Below, piece by piece: positions 13,596 to 63,693 of a DNA stretch of 64,000 nt. The stretch comes from Aphanomyces cochlioides. Taxonomy: Eukaryota > Oomycota > Saprolegniomycetes > Saprolegniales > Verrucalvaceae. How positions within the stretch are numbered: the first letter of the stretch is position 1; the number at the start of each line of letters is the position of its first letter. Where the stretch lies: contig JAHQRK010000007.1 in NCBI GenBank assembly GCA_019828595.1, positions 868,001 to 932,000 of the forward strand, in the 5' to 3' direction. A model generated the notes under the pieces. The model had not been told where the DNA came from and did no database searches. It was given only the letters and a program-made list of their open reading frames with translations. A program made the position numbers and the translations under genes.

Positions 13596-14110
13596 CTACA
13601 CCATTTGCCGGTTTAGTTGGTTTAACTTGCGATATATTTCGTATCACGTGCAATATATTTCGTATGACTTGCAATATATTTCGTATGACTTGCATTTAAT
13701 TTCGTGGCCCGCGACGAAAATCGATTTATATTTCGCATGACTTGCATTATATTTCATACCTCTTGCATTTAATTTCGTATTTTTTAGCTTATATTTCGTA
13801 TCACGTGCATTTAAATTCGTATAAATGCAAAATATATTCAATCTCCTATTGAGATATGAAGTTTCACATGTGTTGTAGTGTTGGCTTGAGCCATGAATTC
13901 GCGACGTGCAGCCGCATATGAACTCTGCTGAGCTTGCTTGATGCTCGCATTGACTTATATGGCGATCGAAGTGTCCCATCAATTTCTTATGAGTTCGATA
14001 ACAATTTTTTGTTAATTTTTCTATGGATTTTTTCTCTTTTCTGCGAAATTAAATGCACGTGATACGAAATATATCGCAAGTTAAACGAACTAAACCGGCA
14101 AATGGTGTAG
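13596..14110. mobile_element. MITE with ~57-bp terminal inverted repeats and TA target duplication
   Basis: The left end CTACACCATTTGCCGGTTTA and the right end are inverted copies over about 57 bp with one mismatch. Both are flanked by TA (13594-13595 and 14111-14112), which is the target duplication typical of Tc1/mariner-type elements. The interior has no coding capacity. It consists largely of degenerate tandem units of about 21 bp, such as TATATTTCGTATGACTTGCA, that resemble the inner part of the TIR. It is inserted in the promoter of the hydrolase gene. Confidence 0.9.
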
Positions 14111-42080: not shown

Positions 42081-43302
42081 ATGATCACATTTCCAGTATC
42101 ACAAGTCGAAGTCACTGCCGTCGAAAATGCACTTGATTCATTCAATGCCCACACCATCGTCTCTTCACTCAGACTTCAAAAAGGAAGGATGTCAAGATAT
42201 CCTCCAAGCAACTCCCATCGAAAACCCTTTTGTCCCATCCACAAATGGATTTGTTCGAGGTGCCATCCAAGCCTACAACCAACATCACAACCTCGAGATC
42301 CGACCGGACGATGTGTGGCTCGCCATCATGGTCCAGTTTGGTCTCTATGTAAATGGAAACGCTGACAAGATGAGAACAGCCCTGGTCAAGCATGAAGGAC
42401 AGAAAGAGCTCGTCGATGTGGACAATGCAATATTACTATCAGCAAATTATGGCAAGTTGGCGACTCGAATGGTTCAGGTAATGAAAGAACATCTTGTGGA
42501 TCCTTCGTTGGGCAAATGGATCTTGCCAAGCTTTACAACCACGACGAACAACGACATGATTGTTGGCAGCGTGGTCATGATGGCTACAATGAAGAAGTAC
42601 TTTTCGTACTGTCTGAAGATGCATTGTGGTATTCCAAATGTAACATTACTCGGATCCGTGGAAGATTGGAAGAAGATTCGAGCTCGAGTGGACAAATTGG
42701 CTGACTTTGGTGAAGATTTGATTGAATGGACATCCATGCTGTCTGGTATCTTGGATGAGTTTGTCTTGTCTGCAAAAGGCAAGGTGAATTTGGACTTTTG
42801 GAAGCGTATATGCCACAATGTCCGTGAGGGATCTGGTTCAAGGTATGTATGTGGTTGGATCAGCGTGTTTTGCCTTTTCAATAAAGATGGTCAATGGCAA
42901 GGGGGTAATCGAACGTACACCAAGTGCCATGTCGAATATTTGGATGAAGGGCCAGACTCTGCGGAATCTGGGAGACGACGTCGACACTGGTCGGAGGAAG
43001 TAACATCCGAGTATCCCCTGGTCGAGATGAGGAATGTCCCTGCTGGATATTTGACAGTCGAATTGGTTATTGACGACAACGGCGCTAAGCACAAGGCGCT
43101 TATGTTTGCTGGTCACATGGCATATCAAGTGCACGATGAAGATACAATCGCTCCGCACTTGAGCTGGGCGATTGCACTCAAAAGCGGGATTCCACTTACA
43201 GCCGACGACGAAGAACTCGCCAAACTTCCTCCTCGCCGTAAAAGAAAACAAAAGTCTGATCTAGCTATTGTCTTTTTCACTGAAATTTGTATTTTTGACT
43301 GA
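42081..43302 (+). pseudogene. DUF4419-like gene, copy 6 (only an N-terminal frameshift)
   Basis: The longest readable copy. From about 42170 to the stop at 43302 there are no lesions, covering ILQATPIENPFVPSTNGFVR, RPDDVWLAIMVQFGLY, MMATMKKYFSYCLKMHCGIP, LDFWKRICHNVREGSGSRYV, YPLVEMRNVPAGYLTVELVI and ALMFAGHMAYQVHDEDTIAP to a basic C-terminus. The family start MITFPVSQVEVTAVENALDS at 42081 is separated by a 2-nt loss near 42170 (CTCAGACTTC, where copy 2 has CTGAAAGAATTC). An internal ATG at 42127 opens the downstream frame, so a 391-aa product with an altered first 15 residues could be made. Function unknown. Confidence 0.8.
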
Positions 43303-43909: not shown

Positions 43910-44743
43910 TCAAGTGCCTGAAGCCTTTTTCCGCAACAACTCGAAGTATATTTCAGTCGTTGGGTGGAGTTGTTTCAAAATGGCCTGTGCAGCTCGTTGC
44001 TTTGCATTTTTCTTGGAGCTTGCGAAACCTTCAGCAATCAAAGATCCTGTCATTAGAACGCATTTGAACTGGCGATGTGTCAAAGGTCCCATGGCCGTCT
44101 CCTTGTTCTTGATGGGGCTGATCTTCTTTGCAGCCTCAAGTTCATGAAGGAGTGCTGTCGGTGTCTTCTCGTTCAACATCACACACGCGTCCAATACCCG
44201 CGGGTCCTCAACAGCCATATTTTGAAATGCCAATTCATCCTACAGCCCTTTCAACACATTTCAGACATAGATTCAAGAAATTTACCGCCGTCAAAGTTGG
44301 AGACTCATCTTCCTTTGCGCGATTTCCACGTGTAATAACGGTAGAATGCAACGAGCGCTCTTTATTTGAAGGTTCGTCATTGTCGCTCGACGAAGAGAGG
44401 TTTTCCTTGAGGCTTCGACTCGGCGTGGGCGTGTTTTGATGTGTTTGCAAAGTTTCATCGTCTATTCGCCTCTTCATTGAAGCTTCGCAATATTAACGTC
44501 AGAGATATGTCGAGACATGGCTCTACCATGGAGTCGAGGTGGCTTTACACGGCGCGGAGGGATATGTGTCCGTAAGATGTGCTCCAGACCAGCTTCTCTT
44601 GCCTTTTTGTCTTGAGGGGGTAACTTGTATGGCTTGGACCATGTGATATATCCCGACGGACCGTGAAAAAAGCAAAACCGCCCAGACTCGTGAGCTACAC
44701 GCATCCAGCCGTCGTCCATCGCTTGAAGTGAGTTGGTGCTCAT
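43910..44743 (-). CDS. WW-like + dsRNA-binding protein, DGCR8/Pasha-like (paralog A)
   Basis: Three exons: 44743..44527, 44461..44286 and 44239..43910, giving 240 aa, with introns of 65 and 46 bp. Residues 11-41 form a WW-like module: DGW (W13), then an H-x-S-G turn (HESG), GYITWSKPYKL with W35 and PY. Residues 153-224 form a double-stranded-RNA-binding domain: helix TALLHELEAAKK, strands FKCVLMTGSLIAEGFA, and the RNA-contacting SSKKNAKQRAAQAILKQLHP. From memory, the DGW..HxSG..TWSxPYxL pattern and the VEDPRV..TPxxLLHE lead-in closely resemble DGCR8/Pasha, the RNA-binding partner of Drosha in animal miRNA processing. Differences are that it is much shorter, has one dsRBD instead of two, and lacks the haem-region Cys motif. 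It is head-to-head with paralog B. Function as a miRNA cofactor is inference. Confidence 0.8.
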
Positions 44744-44920
44744 GATTCAGTAAGGCAGTTGAAGCAGAAAAGAGAATAACTTTGCTATTGTAGCGATTCG
44801 ATTCAATAGATGGGAAAGGAAATTTTCAAAGTTTGTCCATGTCCCCGTTGAAATGGAACTACTGTAGTGCAGTGTGGTCATTCTCTTTTTCGCAAGGTCA
44901 ACGGTGCGATGTCAGACATT
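44744..44920. promoter_or_regulatory. Shared promoter of the two WW/dsRBD paralogs
   Basis: 177 bp between divergent start codons (44743 and 44921). No TATCCGGATA motif was seen here. The arrangement implies co-expression. Confidence 0.5.
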
Positions 44921-46616
44921 ATGAGCTCCGACTCCCTCCAGAACATGGACGATGGGTGGGTCCGCGTGCCGCACAACTCAGGGCGGTACTGCTATTTCCA
45001 CGGTCCCTCGGGATATATTACATTGTCCGAGCCGTACAAGCTGGCCTTTGAAGATGCAAACGAAGCCGACTGGGAGCGTATTGTTCAGACTCATGCCCCT
45101 CTTGGATGCACTCAGTCTCATGGTACACCCTTGCTTTGATGCATCTTGACATTAGATCTTCTAGCTTCTGCCATGCATCTAGCATCCTCAGCAGAAAAGA
45201 GCCAACGAGTGCAACGCAGTAATCGCGTGGAAAGCCAGACGTCAGCAAGCAAGAATGGTGAAGTTCAGGTGTATTCGTGTTTGAAATGTCAGCTCATAGA
45301 TCTTAGGCAGAAGGCGCCCAACCAGGAGAATACCCAGCGTTGACAGATGTATTCCCTTCTAAGTACCTTGGACCTTGAATTGTTGTAGGATCAGTTGGCC
45401 TTTCGGAGCATGGCAATTTGTGACGAACGAGTGTTGCCAATGTGCGTGGCGATGAGTGAATCAACGCCAATATCACTGCTGAATGAATTTGTTGTTTCAC
45501 GAGAATTGAGTCCCCTGAAGTACACGGAGACGTCGACGGGCACTTTGACCCATCCTCAGTTCAAATGCGTCGTGACTTCAGGATCTCTGTCTGCGGAGGG
45601 CTTTGCCAGCACCAAGAAAGATGCAAGGCATCGGGCTGCTCAGGCATTGCTCGAATTGCTGAATCCGACGGTAGCAACGTATTTTGAGCTGCTGGAGATA
45701 AAGAAGGTGGAAGCCGACATTCGACAAACGGTCAAACATGCCGAGACTTTGCGAAAGAAGAGCTCCAAACTGAAGGCTCGTGTGAAGCGCCGCCACGCCC
45801 ATGTACACAGTTGTAATTAGTCACGCTGACAAGGATGTAGACTGGTACCCAAGGAGGAAACATAAGTGACCGATTGGGTCAAAACCGAAATCAAAGACCC
45901 AGGTTAAGTCCATCCAGCTCAAACAGACCCTCTGTTGCTGCATATGATGTAAGTCTTACCCCTGTTGACATTCCACTAAAATCGATAGAAGAGCACACGG
46001 GAAAGAAGTTTGACGGACAACGAAGTCGAAAGCGGAAGGGTGGAAAGCCGTCCATCTTGTGGAAAAAGGCAACAACCATCCCCTGGTGAGCACGCTTTGC
46101 CCACATCCAAGCCTGTAAGTGTGGAAGTCTGTCATCCACTAAATGTGTCCTTGTAGGTTGCCGACGGTGAAGATTTCCACCAGAGCAACAAGATTGGTGG
46201 CAAACGCTGTGCGAGTCTAGATCAAAGCTTTAACATACGTCCCAGTGCGACCGACAAGGTGAGACGGTCTTTACCTTGTTTGATGCGGAGACAATGTTTA
46301 GTCCACAGAAAACCCACTACCAACTATATCAAACGACGAAACGCGTTCCTCGTCAAGACAGCCTCCATCGCCACGCGGCCCTGGAAAGGTGAATGCTCAA
46401 ACAACGATTGTACATGGACGAAACATTCCACGCGTTTCATTGCATCTGTAGATATCTCCATTCAAACTGCCAACTTCCAACGCGATCAAGCAACAAATCG
46501 TGAGCGATGTAGCCCCGCCTGTGGCCACAAAGCAGGCCACTAGCCGACCACGCACTGAAGATTCCAACACCATACCGCCATTCAACTGGAGAGCGTTCGA
46601 TGGACCTTTCATTTAG
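44921..46616 (+). CDS. WW-like + dsRNA-binding protein, DGCR8/Pasha-like (paralog B), with long tail
   Basis: Exons: 44921-45122, 45165-45268, 45307-45348, 45389-45802, 45841-45948, 45989-46114, 46157-46258, 46302-46388 and 46452-46616. All introns are 38-63 bp and in frame, giving about 449 aa. The first exon pairs with paralog A (DGW, HNSG, GYITLSEPYKL), but the second WW tryptophan is Leu35. The intron after residue 67 is at the homologous position and phase. dsRBD at about residues 138-209 (ISLLNEFVVSREL, FKCVVTSGSLSAEGFASTKK), followed by a basic coiled helix (ETLRKKSSKLKARVKRR). If the 45803 donor is not used, the protein ends at 45820 (259 aa). Otherwise a Ser/Arg/Pro-rich disordered tail follows. 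The tail exons depend on phase-0 joins only. More coding-looking sequence follows the stop. Confidence 0.72.
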
Positions 46617-47060: not shown

Positions 47061-47937
47061 AAATTCACAGGGAGCATTAATCATACACAAAGAGCCACCA
47101 TCTTGGTGCAAGCATCTCGATATCGATTAAAGTCCTTTAGTGTATCAATGGCTACCATTAAGGTGGTGATAAGCCGCGCTTTTTGTCAGGTTTTGCACTC
47201 TCCTATCACTCTAAAGTTTATAAGTTTAAGAGGGTGCAGTTTAGTCGATTAATGCCGACGACGCCAAGTCCGCCGGCTCGGCAGTCTCCGCGGCACCATT
47301 AATCGATCTCGATGCGATGGATTTCTGGAACGAATCCTATCCTTCTCCTATATGAGGTGTGCGCGCGGAAACTCCCCCCAAAACGTTCAAGAACAACTTG
47401 CCCCATGTGCTTTCGAAGATTTTCAACTACCGGTACGAAGAGGAGGAACATAACTCGAGCTAGCTACACATCTATTCAAAACCTTTCATGACGAGCCAAA
47501 AAGTCTACGAGCCGCCCAATTGCATATACACCGGTAGCGCCATACCCTGTACTGCTGTAGCCTATCCAACATGCGCTTTAAACGCTCTGTGAGCCGCCAA
47601 TTCAGCCCGCTGGCTTCAATTTTGTCATTGTGCTCAGCTTTTCAACTGTCCACAACATCGTAACTGTAAGACGTTTATTTGCATATATTTTACCTTTAAA
47701 TTATACAGAAGATCAAAATATAAAGAGATTAAAACTAGAGAATACTCAAATATATGCAAATTAATATCTTAAATTAACAACCTTATGTTTAGATAAAATG
47801 GGCGATACGACAATCCCATCCGACATGCGTTTCATTGGTTATTATTCAATTCAATCTACTGTAATCTACTGTATTCAATTCAATCTACTGTAATCTACTG
47901 TCTGCACTGAACAAGACAATTCAAAGGCATGCATGAA
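47061..47937. other. Intergenic, weak coding fragments and a 29-bp tandem duplication
   Basis: At about 47375-47460 a plus-strand stretch (FKNNLPHVLSKIFNYRYEEE) looks weakly coding but is isolated. At 47844-47901 a 29-bp unit (ATTCAATTCAATCTACTGTA, then ATCTACTGT) is present as two perfect tandem copies. Nothing else was recognised. Confidence 0.4.
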
Positions 47938-49382
47938 TTACGAAGAAGTATCTCTCTTACGCTTGCGAACTTCCTTCAGAAGACTCGTGTACGTCTCAGT
48001 GTGGCCAGCAAAGGCATTTGCGAAGAGCTCGAAGCTCTGAAACTTCGAAAACGCAGTCGCAATTGTCTGTCGCTCGGAGTATTTCTTCCGGTCCATTTTG
48101 ACCATGGCTTTGGTGAAATCCTTCAACGCACAAGGCCGGCCGTTGGCTACATCAGCGTAGAACCATTGTTGCCATGCTTCCTGGGCAGAGTGCGCACTTG
48201 GTATAGTTCTAGGCACAACGTATGAGTTCAGAGTCGTCTGCTTGCTGATGGTTGGTAGTTTCTTGACCACGGGAAGAGCGTCTTGCTCTTGAAGTGATTT
48301 GATAATAAAGTCGGCAATTGCTTCAGCGGTCATAGGAGTCGAGTTGTTGGACGACACAACGAAGCCCGTGGACTTCGGTCTACTCAGCAGATTGCGCGGG
48401 TCGATTGCATCGCTTAGGTTCTTGGTGACGAGATACTCACACATTGTCTTCGCGTCGCCCCAACGACACCAGGCCATTTGCTCTCGAAAGTTGAATCGTC
48501 TTTCACGAGACTCAAATACACGATAAAAGCTACCACCTCGTCTCATACTGTGCAGAGACACATTCACTGACAACTCGGGTGACCGCTCGACAATGTCATT
48601 AATTCGACGTCTCAAGTAGTTTTGCTCCATCGGTTTGTCCCAGCAAACCTTGATTCCACCACCTGGAGACCAATGATTTGAGGAAACACGTACGCATTGT
48701 CAACCATGTGAATTATGGCCGTGCGTACTGCCGACACGTAATCTTGGTGGAAGCCACAAACACGCAAACATGGAAACGACAGCTCATCGACAAGATGGTA
48801 AATCTGGCATTCTTTCTCCACACTGGCCTTTTTGTGCCATCGCAATCTCACAGATACGTAAGGCCCATTCTCAGACTCAGCCCGCGATAAGTCAGACCAC
48901 CTCAATGACAGTACTTCACTGATGCGAAAGCATCCTAAGTAGCACACAGAGAATAAAAAGCGAAACATCGCTCCAAGGAAAGGGTTCAAATCACCAAAGG
49001 AATTCATCAGTATGGACAGCTCGTGTACACTGAGAGGGTGCGCTTTGTTTTCTTCGTCGATATTGTGATGCCTGTTGTATTTCTGTAGACCCACGACATA
49101 CTGTTTCGTGTCCGTTGCTTGTGCTGGGTTTGGATCTACTTTTCGATCTTTAAACATCGCCACCATGGCTGTCTTGGCACAATCGATGGTTCTGGCTTTT
49201 CTCCCCAGTGAGTATAGGTGGTGAAGAAAGTCGGTGCAGTCGTCGCTGGTGGCTGTCAGCGGGTCCTTACCACCATCTTGCAAGTGCTCCAAGAACTGGT
49301 GCTGATACGTTCGGTACGTCCGCCGCGTGGACGCACCGATAAAGGACTCTTGGATTGCTTCTTTTGAAGGTACCCCGTCCAT
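47938..49382 (-). pseudogene. Crypton-type tyrosine recombinase, one frameshift
   Basis: N-terminal core-binding part (FIGASTRRTYRTYQHQFLEH), then a catalytic domain with the first Arg in CFRISEVLSLRWSDL, the H-x-x-R box in SLHSMRRGGSFYR and the likely nucleophile Tyr in AKTMCEYLVTKNL. This R..HxxR..Y set defines tyrosine recombinases; with its size and the C-terminal extension (AWQQWFYADVANGRP, KKYSERQTIATAFSKF) it fits oomycete Cryptons. A one-base loss near 48665 separates the frame 49382..48612 from 48630..47938 (the second should join through PGGGIKVCWDKPM). Intact length would be about 480 aa. Element ends were not found. Confidence 0.87.
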
Positions 49383-59149: not shown

Positions 59150-59290
59150 TTGAATATTCCTCCCTAGTTTTGAGCAAGCCTCTCGCAGTTTTGAGCAACT
59201 CCGCTAGTTTTGAGCAAGACTCCGCTAGTTTTGAGCATTTCTCCGGTACTTTTGTGCAAATCTCCAGCAATTTTAAGCAAACTCTGTTCT
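59150..59290. repeat. Degenerate 20-21-bp tandem repeat
   Basis: Six diverging copies of a CTCCGCTAGTTTTGAGCAAG-type unit follow the MULE fragment. The unit is 7 codons long, and on the minus strand it reads as an L-L-K-T-S-G-V-type heptad, so it may be a relic of a coding repeat. Bases 59291-59757 hold nothing recognisable. Confidence 0.65.
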
Positions 59291-61948: not shown

Positions 61949-63693
61949 TCCTACCCAACGGCGAGCAAATGCATGGATGCAGCGGCACCGCGCACATTGA
62001 ACTCTCAAACGGAAAGAAGAGCAATATGCTCACACTTGACAACGTGGCCTTCGAGCAAGCATCTATAAAAACTTGATATCGCACATTCAGTTGCTAAAGA
62101 TGGGATACCGACTTGTGAAGCAAGACTTAAACGAAGCCATTTACCAACGAAACGACCAACCGCGGGTTCTTGTCTTCAAGCTTTTCAACGACATGTATGT
62201 TCTACAAAACCAAGTCAACGCAGTCAAGACGGACGACAAGTTGATTCGCTGGCACAACAAGCTCAATCATGCAAGTTATGATCAAGTCGCTAAGATCATC
62301 AAACCCATTATCGACAAGGAAGAAGACTTGACTACCTCTGAACGCAAGTGTGATGGTTGCCTGCAAGGCCAAGCGAAACGAATGTCGAACAGAATCCAAA
62401 ACCACTTAGTCGCTCCCCTGCCTCTTGAAAGTCTGAGCGCAGACTTGTGCGGACCCATCACAACTAAGACAATTCATGGGCAACGATACACGAGCGTTTT
62501 CACTGACCATACGTTGAGGTTCATCTTCGCTTGTCTGCTCAAGTCCAAGGACGAGACCATTCTCCACCTAGACGAACTGACGTCAGAACTGGACAATCAA
62601 CGTCGCGACTCACGTATCAGCAATATATATTCAGACGGCGGCGGCGAGTACACAAGCGCCAGCTTCGAGCGGCATGCACAGCCAGAGGGATCAAGCAGAA
62701 GTTCACAAATGCACACACACCCGAAGAAAACCACTTGGCTGACACGACCAACGAATACCTATTCAACAAAGTCAGAGTATACATGACAATGAGTGGGCTG
62801 CCAGCACAACTGTGGGGGTATGCACTTGATCACATTGTGCATGTGTACAACAACACGCCGCAACGCAAGAGCTCTTGAACCAAAGGCCACCATACGAAGT
62901 CTTGTTTGCAAAGCCTAGCAGACTGCACATGCTGAAAACATTCGGGTGCCTTGCTTCCATGTATGTGCCAAAGGCCGAGCGCGCGTCCAAGTTGGCCAAT
63001 CCAGCGGTACCATGCGTGTTCATCGGCTACGCAAAGGACAGACTTGGTTACCTCCTCTACAACCCGAAGAAGCGTACCATTCAAACTTCTCGCTCGGTGA
63101 AGTTTGATGAAACCAAGCTTCGAAACTCCAACATGTTCCTTGACAAAGACTTCAAAGCAGGTCGCCTCATCATCCCATCTCATGACTCCACGGGCAGACT
63201 AGCCATGGACGACGAGCTCTAGAATGCTAGATTCAACATCAACGAAGACGAGGAACCAATACCCGAGGAAACGAAGACGAGGAACCAACACCCAAGGACC
63301 GCAGCCGAAGCTGCCGAAACCAGTCTCGAGGACAGAAAGCGAGTAGCGACTCGGAAGTCTACCCGCCTCATCAAAAAGCCAAAGATCTATGAAGTCAACA
63401 ATGTGACCACCAAGCTTGTCGAACCACAAACCTTCAAGGATGTCGACAAAAGCGCCTATCGCAGCGAATGGATCGAAGCAACTAACGCTGAATATCAAGC
63501 CATGCTAGCCAACAACGTGTGGGAACTCGTACCTCTCCCGGCGGGCCGCAAAGCGCTGAAGTGCAAGTGGGTTTGGAAAGCGAAGTACCACGCCAAAGGA
63601 TCTCTTGAGCGCTTCAAAGCACGTCTCTGCCTAAAAGGGTATCTTCAAATTGCCGGGGTTGACTTTACGGACACGTACGCATCTGTAACGTAA
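61725..63693 (+). pseudogene. pol: Copia pol (protease, integrase, partial RT), broken
   Basis: Protease at about 61860-62070: HWTLDNRATGHVTGMRHYVK, where the active site D-S-G-A reads D-N-R-A. A GAG-pre-integrase region follows (LIRWHNKLNHASYDQV, CDGCLQGQA). Then the integrase core has Asp in LESLSADLCGPI and Asp in IYSDGGGEYTS. Frame shifts occur near 62670 (to GIKQKFTNAHTPEENHLADT) and near 62870 (to NQRPPYEVLFAKPSRLHMLK), and there is a stop at 63220-63222. RT begins at WIEATNAEYQAMLANNVWEL, CKWVWKAKYHAKGSLERFKA and is cut after GVDFTDTYASVT. Confidence 0.88.

Follow-up and report, generated by a model that had tools for sequence, protein, structure and literature searches.

Drosha and Pasha of ichthyosporeans were reportedly the subject of a study by Braate and others in 2018. 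The presence of the two proteins in these organisms has been read as evidence that the animal Microprocessor originated in unicellular holozoans (PMC8061703). Among algae, the brown alga Ectocarpus reportedly lacks both Drosha and Pasha (PMC12867755); a further study gives no match for Pasha in it (PMC4513859), and another reports no Pasha in a red seaweed (PMC12026948). In oomycetes, the enzyme DCL2 has been placed near Drosha (PMC10080066, PMC12857978, PMC4791657), and its function has been described as more Dicer-like on the strength of its PAZ domain (PMC4791657). Phytophthora produces 21-nt small RNAs, one family of which is hairpin-derived (PMC3804510).

The three papers on DCL2 do not mention DGCR8 (PMC4791657, PMC10080066, PMC12857978), and a review mentions oomycete, Pasha and DGCR8 separately, without linking them (PMC5352665). 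The original prediction for the locus described here held that no Microprocessor had been described in stramenopiles. This stands for DGCR8/Pasha, in that no stramenopile report was found among the titles and passages listed from the open-licence PMC literature, and has to be amended for Drosha, near which oomycete DCL2 had already been placed.

The divergent gene pair

The window, meaning the whole stretch of 64,000 nucleotides of Aphanomyces cochlioides DNA that was analysed, contains two divergent genes with the following features (positions are those of the window).

44743-44527, 44461-44286, 44239-43910, minus strand: minus gene, three exons, 240 aa, stop at 43910
44624..44719 (extent approximate), minus strand: minus-gene WW module (DDGW...TWSKPYKL), with both tryptophans present
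43910..44239, minus strand: minus-gene dsRBD exon; the lead-in reads DELAFQNMAVEDPRV and the segment after the dsRBD LHPTTEIYFELLRKK; Pfam dsrm E 1e-8
44744..44920, no strand assigned: intergenic gap between the divergent starts, 177 bp, putative bidirectional promoter
44909-45122, 45165-45268, 45307-45348, 45389-45802, 45989-46114, 46157-46258, 46302-46409, 46452-46616, plus strand: plus gene, eight exons, 424 aa
44948..45040 (extent approximate), plus strand: plus-gene WW module (DDGW...TLSEPYKL), Leu in place of the second Trp
45389..45802, plus strand: plus-gene dsRBD exon, made up of the lead-in DDQLAFRSMAICDERV, the dsRBD and a C-terminal helix that is long and basic; Pfam dsrm 5.3e-10

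Two genes had been predicted at 43910..46616, and the models end at exactly these positions, with the minus stop at 43910 and the plus stop at 46616. Splice sites were set by sequence reading and the plus gene was fitted to the A. euteiches proteins P0010-P0014; the plus protein is 88.8% identical to P0012 over 421 aa. Retention of the intron at 45803-45988 gives a short form of the plus gene (263 aa, stop at 45820), and both forms are present among P0010-P0014. The plus/minus pair profile and the six-protein search for orthologues used an earlier plus model with other linker splice sites and the stop at 45820. The gap between the start codons measures the predicted 177 bp with a plus start at 44921 and 165 bp with a start at 44909; the A. 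euteiches models show both starts. The sharing of a promoter would suggest co-expression only.

In both proteins a linker joins a WW module to a single dsRBD. The linker of the minus protein is of low complexity and nothing follows its post-dsRBD segment; the plus protein continues into a long conserved C-terminal part. No second dsRBD was found in either gene by a Pfam dsrm search, in which contig C67 gave no further dsrm match. Because each gene lacks tandem dsRBDs, the pair is classed as DGCR8-derived paralogues rather than as DGCR8. Between the paralogues, dS/dN is about 1.40/0.23 in the WW region (58 codons) and about 1.64/0.31 in the dsRBD region (105 codons), the dS values being rough; these values point to purifying selection, and therefore neither gene looks like a pseudogene.

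Several other elements lie in the window. An intact DUF4419 protein (E 1.1e-99) is encoded at 42127-43302 on the plus strand, just upstream of the pair. On the other side, frames at 47938-49382 on the minus strand give integrase-type N-terminal SAM-like matches under the Pfam cut-off, and are possibly a tyrosine-recombinase mobile element adjoining the pair. Short tandem repeats, their units 21 to 40 nt long, occur at 13625-13705, 47843-47901, 59160-59281 and 63241-63298.

The dsRBD matches of the window genes are judged to be real and not due to chance. A profile of the minus and plus genes retrieves DGCR8 at 6.7e-14, and human DGCR8 dsRBD2, when searched against the whole genome, matches a full-length gene on contig C34 (4.6e-9) and the window minus gene (2.9e-4), with no third gene at E <= 10. 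Both window genes carry a second-type dsRBD with the DGCR8 lead-in and following helix, and in a structure comparison with a predicted fold the flanking helices superpose on those of DGCR8. Aligned identities to DGCR8 are low, at about 20-25%. Homology to DGCR8/Pasha had been proposed for precisely this region, dsRBD2 and its lead-in, and the pair profile, the Foldseek ranking of DGCR8 chains and the superposed helices bear the proposal out; by sequence and predicted fold, the window genes are almost certainly homologous to DGCR8.

A grouping of these dsRBDs with those of Dicer partners had been named at the outset as an outcome that would speak against DGCR8; it was not borne out, though some of the evidence points that way. 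The isolated dsRBD exon of the plus gene scores best with TARBP2 (dsRBD1, 1.4e-7), ahead of DGCR8. Separately, the predicted fold of a window-gene orthologue, compared by Foldseek in rankings that cover the listed families only, places a Staufen chain fifth amid DGCR8 chains. A first dsRBD tree of 23 rows, among them two database models that still contain introns and three other long rows, drew the window pair beside TRBP dsRBD1 without resolving its position. A second tree of 18 rows, built without C10, L031, the three rows from A. euteiches and the intron part of the A. stellatus row, grouped the pair with DGCR8-dsRBD2 at 78/83; constraining the window dsRBDs with TRBP dsRBD1 was rejected on this tree (AU p 0.013). 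The window dsRBDs contain GxLTH and KKxA[KR] motifs, which we take to be the usual dsRNA contacts of such domains, and because these motifs are present the domains probably bind RNA stems.

Pfam makes no WW call on the window WW exons at E <= 5. In a phmmer search of the PDB, the minus WW exon gives DGCR8 as the top match (3le4 and 4e5r, E 1.5e-4 each); the printed sequence of 4e5r, labelled MGC78846, is nearly identical to 3le4 and is presumably that of frog DGCR8. The window-pair profile recovers the WW of DGCR8 3le4 as a separate match at 2.8e-4. The WW profile of the full-length family places 4e5r (8.2e-9) and DGCR8 3le4 (5.5e-8) first, followed by NEDD4L at 2.2e-4, which upholds the significance of the WW match for that family. 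All 11 rows of alignment A3, as well as both window genes, have the Gly-Trp pair, and since it is kept the WW modules probably dimerise; dimerisation of the worm Pasha WW requires this pair (PMC12219410).

As predicted, the second WW tryptophan is kept in the minus gene and lost in the plus gene, where its site is occupied by a Leu codon (TTG, 45023-45025). A heterodimer had been argued from this loss, and the argument was rejected: the five A. euteiches orthologues that span the WW (P0010-P0014) all retain the tryptophan, and the WW of fly and worm Pasha lacks it (PMC12219410).

The full-length relative and the Drosha-like gene

Two genes elsewhere in the same genome bear on the pair.

G000:C34:672021-673890, minus strand: full-length DGCR8-like gene, 563 aa, four short introns, modelled by hand
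About G000:C10:1073725-1076585, minus strand: very probable Drosha homologue, 782-aa model searched

The gene on C34 contains a WW, dsRBD1 and dsRBD2 in the order of DGCR8. An automatic codon-usage model of it retained two in-frame introns and missed both ends. The first 410 residues of the hand-built protein match DGCR8 at E 4.4e-22 in three collinear stretches, with Staufen next at 1.7e-3, and a six-row Saprolegniales profile of the family matches DGCR8 at 1.6e-35 and Staufen at 1.4e-7. In the 18-row tree the dsRBD1s of this family group with human DGCR8 dsRBD1 at 99/96. The predicted model of the Achlya orthologue (mean pLDDT 59, folded parts mostly 70-90) has DGCR8 chains as its first seven Foldseek rows and first seven VIA-align rows. 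Its top structural row superposes with an rmsd of 11.8 A over 193 residues, a high value which implies that the two dsRBDs are placed differently relative to DGCR8. The same model predicts an isolated C-terminal helix at 574-587 (pLDDT about 60), a candidate Drosha-binding helix, and a similar segment, LKSELRKSL, is found in several orthologues. An invariant heme-ligand Cys was considered for the family and rejected: a Cys follows the WW in five of six rows, with Ser in Thraustotheca, and the DGCR8 sequence match ends before this position. As the Cys is not invariant, heme binding by the full-length family is doubtful.

The C34 gene has relatives in A. euteiches, A. stellatus, A. invadans, A. 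astaci (partial), Saprolegnia diclina, Achlya hypogyna and Thraustotheca clavata. The protein searches (P0001-P0015) returned at least eight, at least six and at least six proteins, with Aphanomyces, Saprolegnia, Achlya and Thraustotheca among the matches listed; the same matches include no orthologue of the minus gene. Membership of the order Saprolegniales was confirmed for two of these species, and we assume it for the others. The C34 protein is 88% identical to its A. euteiches counterpart, in agreement with the original prediction of a probable oomycete, here one of the Saprolegniales close to A. euteiches. The records for T. clavata and A. astaci annotate the DGCR8-like protein as fused to a BSD-domain protein, and tblastn locates the same BSD protein immediately downstream of the C34 gene and in the same orientation (L004 about 1388-96); the neighbourhood of the C34 gene is therefore common across genera. 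The gene is judged not to be contamination.

Some database models of the family depart from this architecture. P0001 (A. euteiches) and P0002 (A. stellatus) contain in-frame introns within dsRBD1 when compared with the spliced model, and this retention blurs dsRBD1 for automatic annotation. The A. euteiches proteins P0004 and P0007, further relatives of the full-length gene, keep the WW and dsRBD2 and only the last stub of dsRBD1, and may represent either a second loss of dsRBD1 in the family or decaying copies.

A Drosha-like RNase III with two RNase III domains had been named as a gene to look for, and such a gene was found on C10. The genome contains nine RNase III matches, those on C10 belonging to one gene. 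The model of this gene came from a codon-usage gene finder with a per-codon bonus and comprises 787 aa, of which 782 aa were searched. It matches human Drosha at 9e-44 (153 bits), against 1.7e-16 (62.8 bits) for the best Dicer-type chain, and residues 60-159 match the Drosha central region (6v5b_A 242-339, i-Evalue 9.3e-6). Pfam recognises two RNase III stretches, the first of which has extra residues between THxSY and ERLEFLGDAV, as in a printed Drosha alignment. Neither a helicase nor a PAZ domain is called by Pfam in the 782-aa model, whose N-terminal end is provisional. A C-terminal dsRBD is likewise not called by Pfam dsrm, and the end of the model aligns within a bacterial RNase III match that reaches residue 243 of that protein.

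When five RNase III models were searched in reverse with the Drosha segment (phmmer), C10 scored 128.6 bits and the next model 40.0; this search used a 999-aa version of C10, stretches only of C2 and L029, and single exons of two C6 genes, with a weak C29 match left out. Searched against the raw genome, human Drosha matches two single-RNase III exons on C6 best (2.7e-8, 6.0e-7), then C2, and C10 appears as four weak matches of 17.9 to 10.4 bits, split by introns. The C10 gene is very probably a Drosha homologue. The C2 gene stretch is Dicer-like, with Dcr-1 best at 1.3e-22 and Drosha at 2.2e-9. Elsewhere in the genome Piwi is matched four times (Argonautes), ERH once and RdRP three times, the last at two loci.

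Among the remaining loci, two adjacent and similar RNase III exons lie on one strand at G000:C6:269970-271903 (L026) and probably represent two single-domain RNase III genes in tandem. The region at G000:C6:1921732 (L029) has an RNase III match and, by eye, a weaker second one, and is not Drosha-like (14.8 bits). At G000:C7:1250927 (L031:2335-3222), one protein combines a dsRBD (E 3.6e-10) with an RNA methyltransferase domain of Bin3 type (E 3.1e-19).

Possible roles of the pair

Because homologues of Drosha and of full-length DGCR8 co-occur in this genome, the pair is most simply read as two additional short DGCR8 subunits of a Microprocessor, which would act as alternative partners or as competitors. 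The WW modules would dimerise with themselves, with each other or with the full-length protein, and the window dsRBDs would bind hairpin or dsRNA stems. The dimers would then either hand the bound RNAs to the genome's own Drosha-like RNase III or compete for that enzyme with full-length DGCR8. Dimerisation, RNA binding, partnership with Drosha, hairpin processing and any processing of pri-miRNAs by the pair are steps that we infer from the protein sequences. That the window genes are functional DGCR8/Pasha paralogues without dsRBD1, acting within or on the Microprocessor, is somewhat probable.

The pair might instead have descended from DGCR8 and been recruited as Dicer partners, similar to TRBP, Loqs or HYL1, that deliver dsRNA to the C2 Dicer for siRNA production. 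The preference of the plus dsRBD alone for TARBP2 dsRBD1 (1.4e-7), the canonical dsRNA-contact motifs and the presence of Dicer, RdRPs and Argonautes in the genome all fit such a role, and loss of dsRBD1 may have released the pair from Drosha. However, the DGCR8-like WW and flanking helices have been retained and the tree test rejects placing the pair with TRBP dsRBD1 (p 0.013), and recruitment to Dicer is considered unlikely. A role outside small-RNA biogenesis, as regulators or dsRNA sensors that dimerise with full-length DGCR8 and block it, or that target dsRNA from viruses or transposons for decay by binding it, would suit the minus protein, which stops just past its dsRBD segment and so has no tail with which to hold Drosha; short forms of complex subunits commonly serve as competitors. 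The long conserved C-terminal part of the plus gene, however, suggests a role of its own, and this account of the pair is improbable.

Descent from DGCR8 would be denied altogether if a WW and a generic dsRBD had come together by chance or convergence. Although the WW goes uncalled by Pfam and aligned identities to DGCR8 are about 20-25%, the full-length relative matches DGCR8 in three collinear modules and has a dsRBD1 that groups with that of DGCR8 at 99/96, the flanking helices superpose and a Drosha homologue is present in the genome; a chance union is accordingly most improbable.

Taken more broadly, the reading of the pair as short Microprocessor subunits extends to a working oomycete Drosha-DGCR8 Microprocessor, homologous to that of animals, to which Aphanomyces added a divergent mini-DGCR8 pair. 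Such a complex could either be older than the divergence of stramenopiles from opisthokonts, and have been lost many times since, or have been transferred between them as a two-gene module. This is a serious possibility, though one that falls a little short of probable. The sequences suggest that DGCR8/Drosha machinery may not be confined to animals and their nearest kin. If DGCR8 and Drosha homologues do exist in an oomycete, the complex would have originated outside Holozoa or the whole module would have been transferred, and oomycete DCL2, described in print as Drosha-like, would gain a partner. The mini-DGCR8 pair would also constitute a natural experiment on the purpose of dsRBD1.

Comparison with known systems

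The Dicer partners TRBP, Loquacious and HYL1 have two or three dsRBDs and no WW. The window proteins share with them a canonical dsRBD, to the extent that the isolated plus dsRBD scores TARBP2 top, and differ in possessing the DGCR8-type flanking helices that these Dicer partners lack.

With regard to oomycete DCL2, known here by description, the printed enzyme is described as having a PAZ domain (PMC4791657), whereas Pfam calls none in the C10 model. The C10 Drosha homologue and DCL2 probably belong to the same enzyme family.

The closest resemblance is to DGCR8/Pasha of animals and ichthyosporeans. The window proteins differ from these in lacking dsRBD1 and a recognised Drosha-binding tail and in belonging to a stramenopile lineage, and the Cys after the WW varies in the full-length family. 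They share with DGCR8/Pasha a WW of DGCR8 type with the invariant Gly-Trp, and a second dsRBD complete with lead-in and the helices that follow it. The relative on C34 adds dsRBD1 in the same order, and its genome also encodes the very probable homologue of Drosha.
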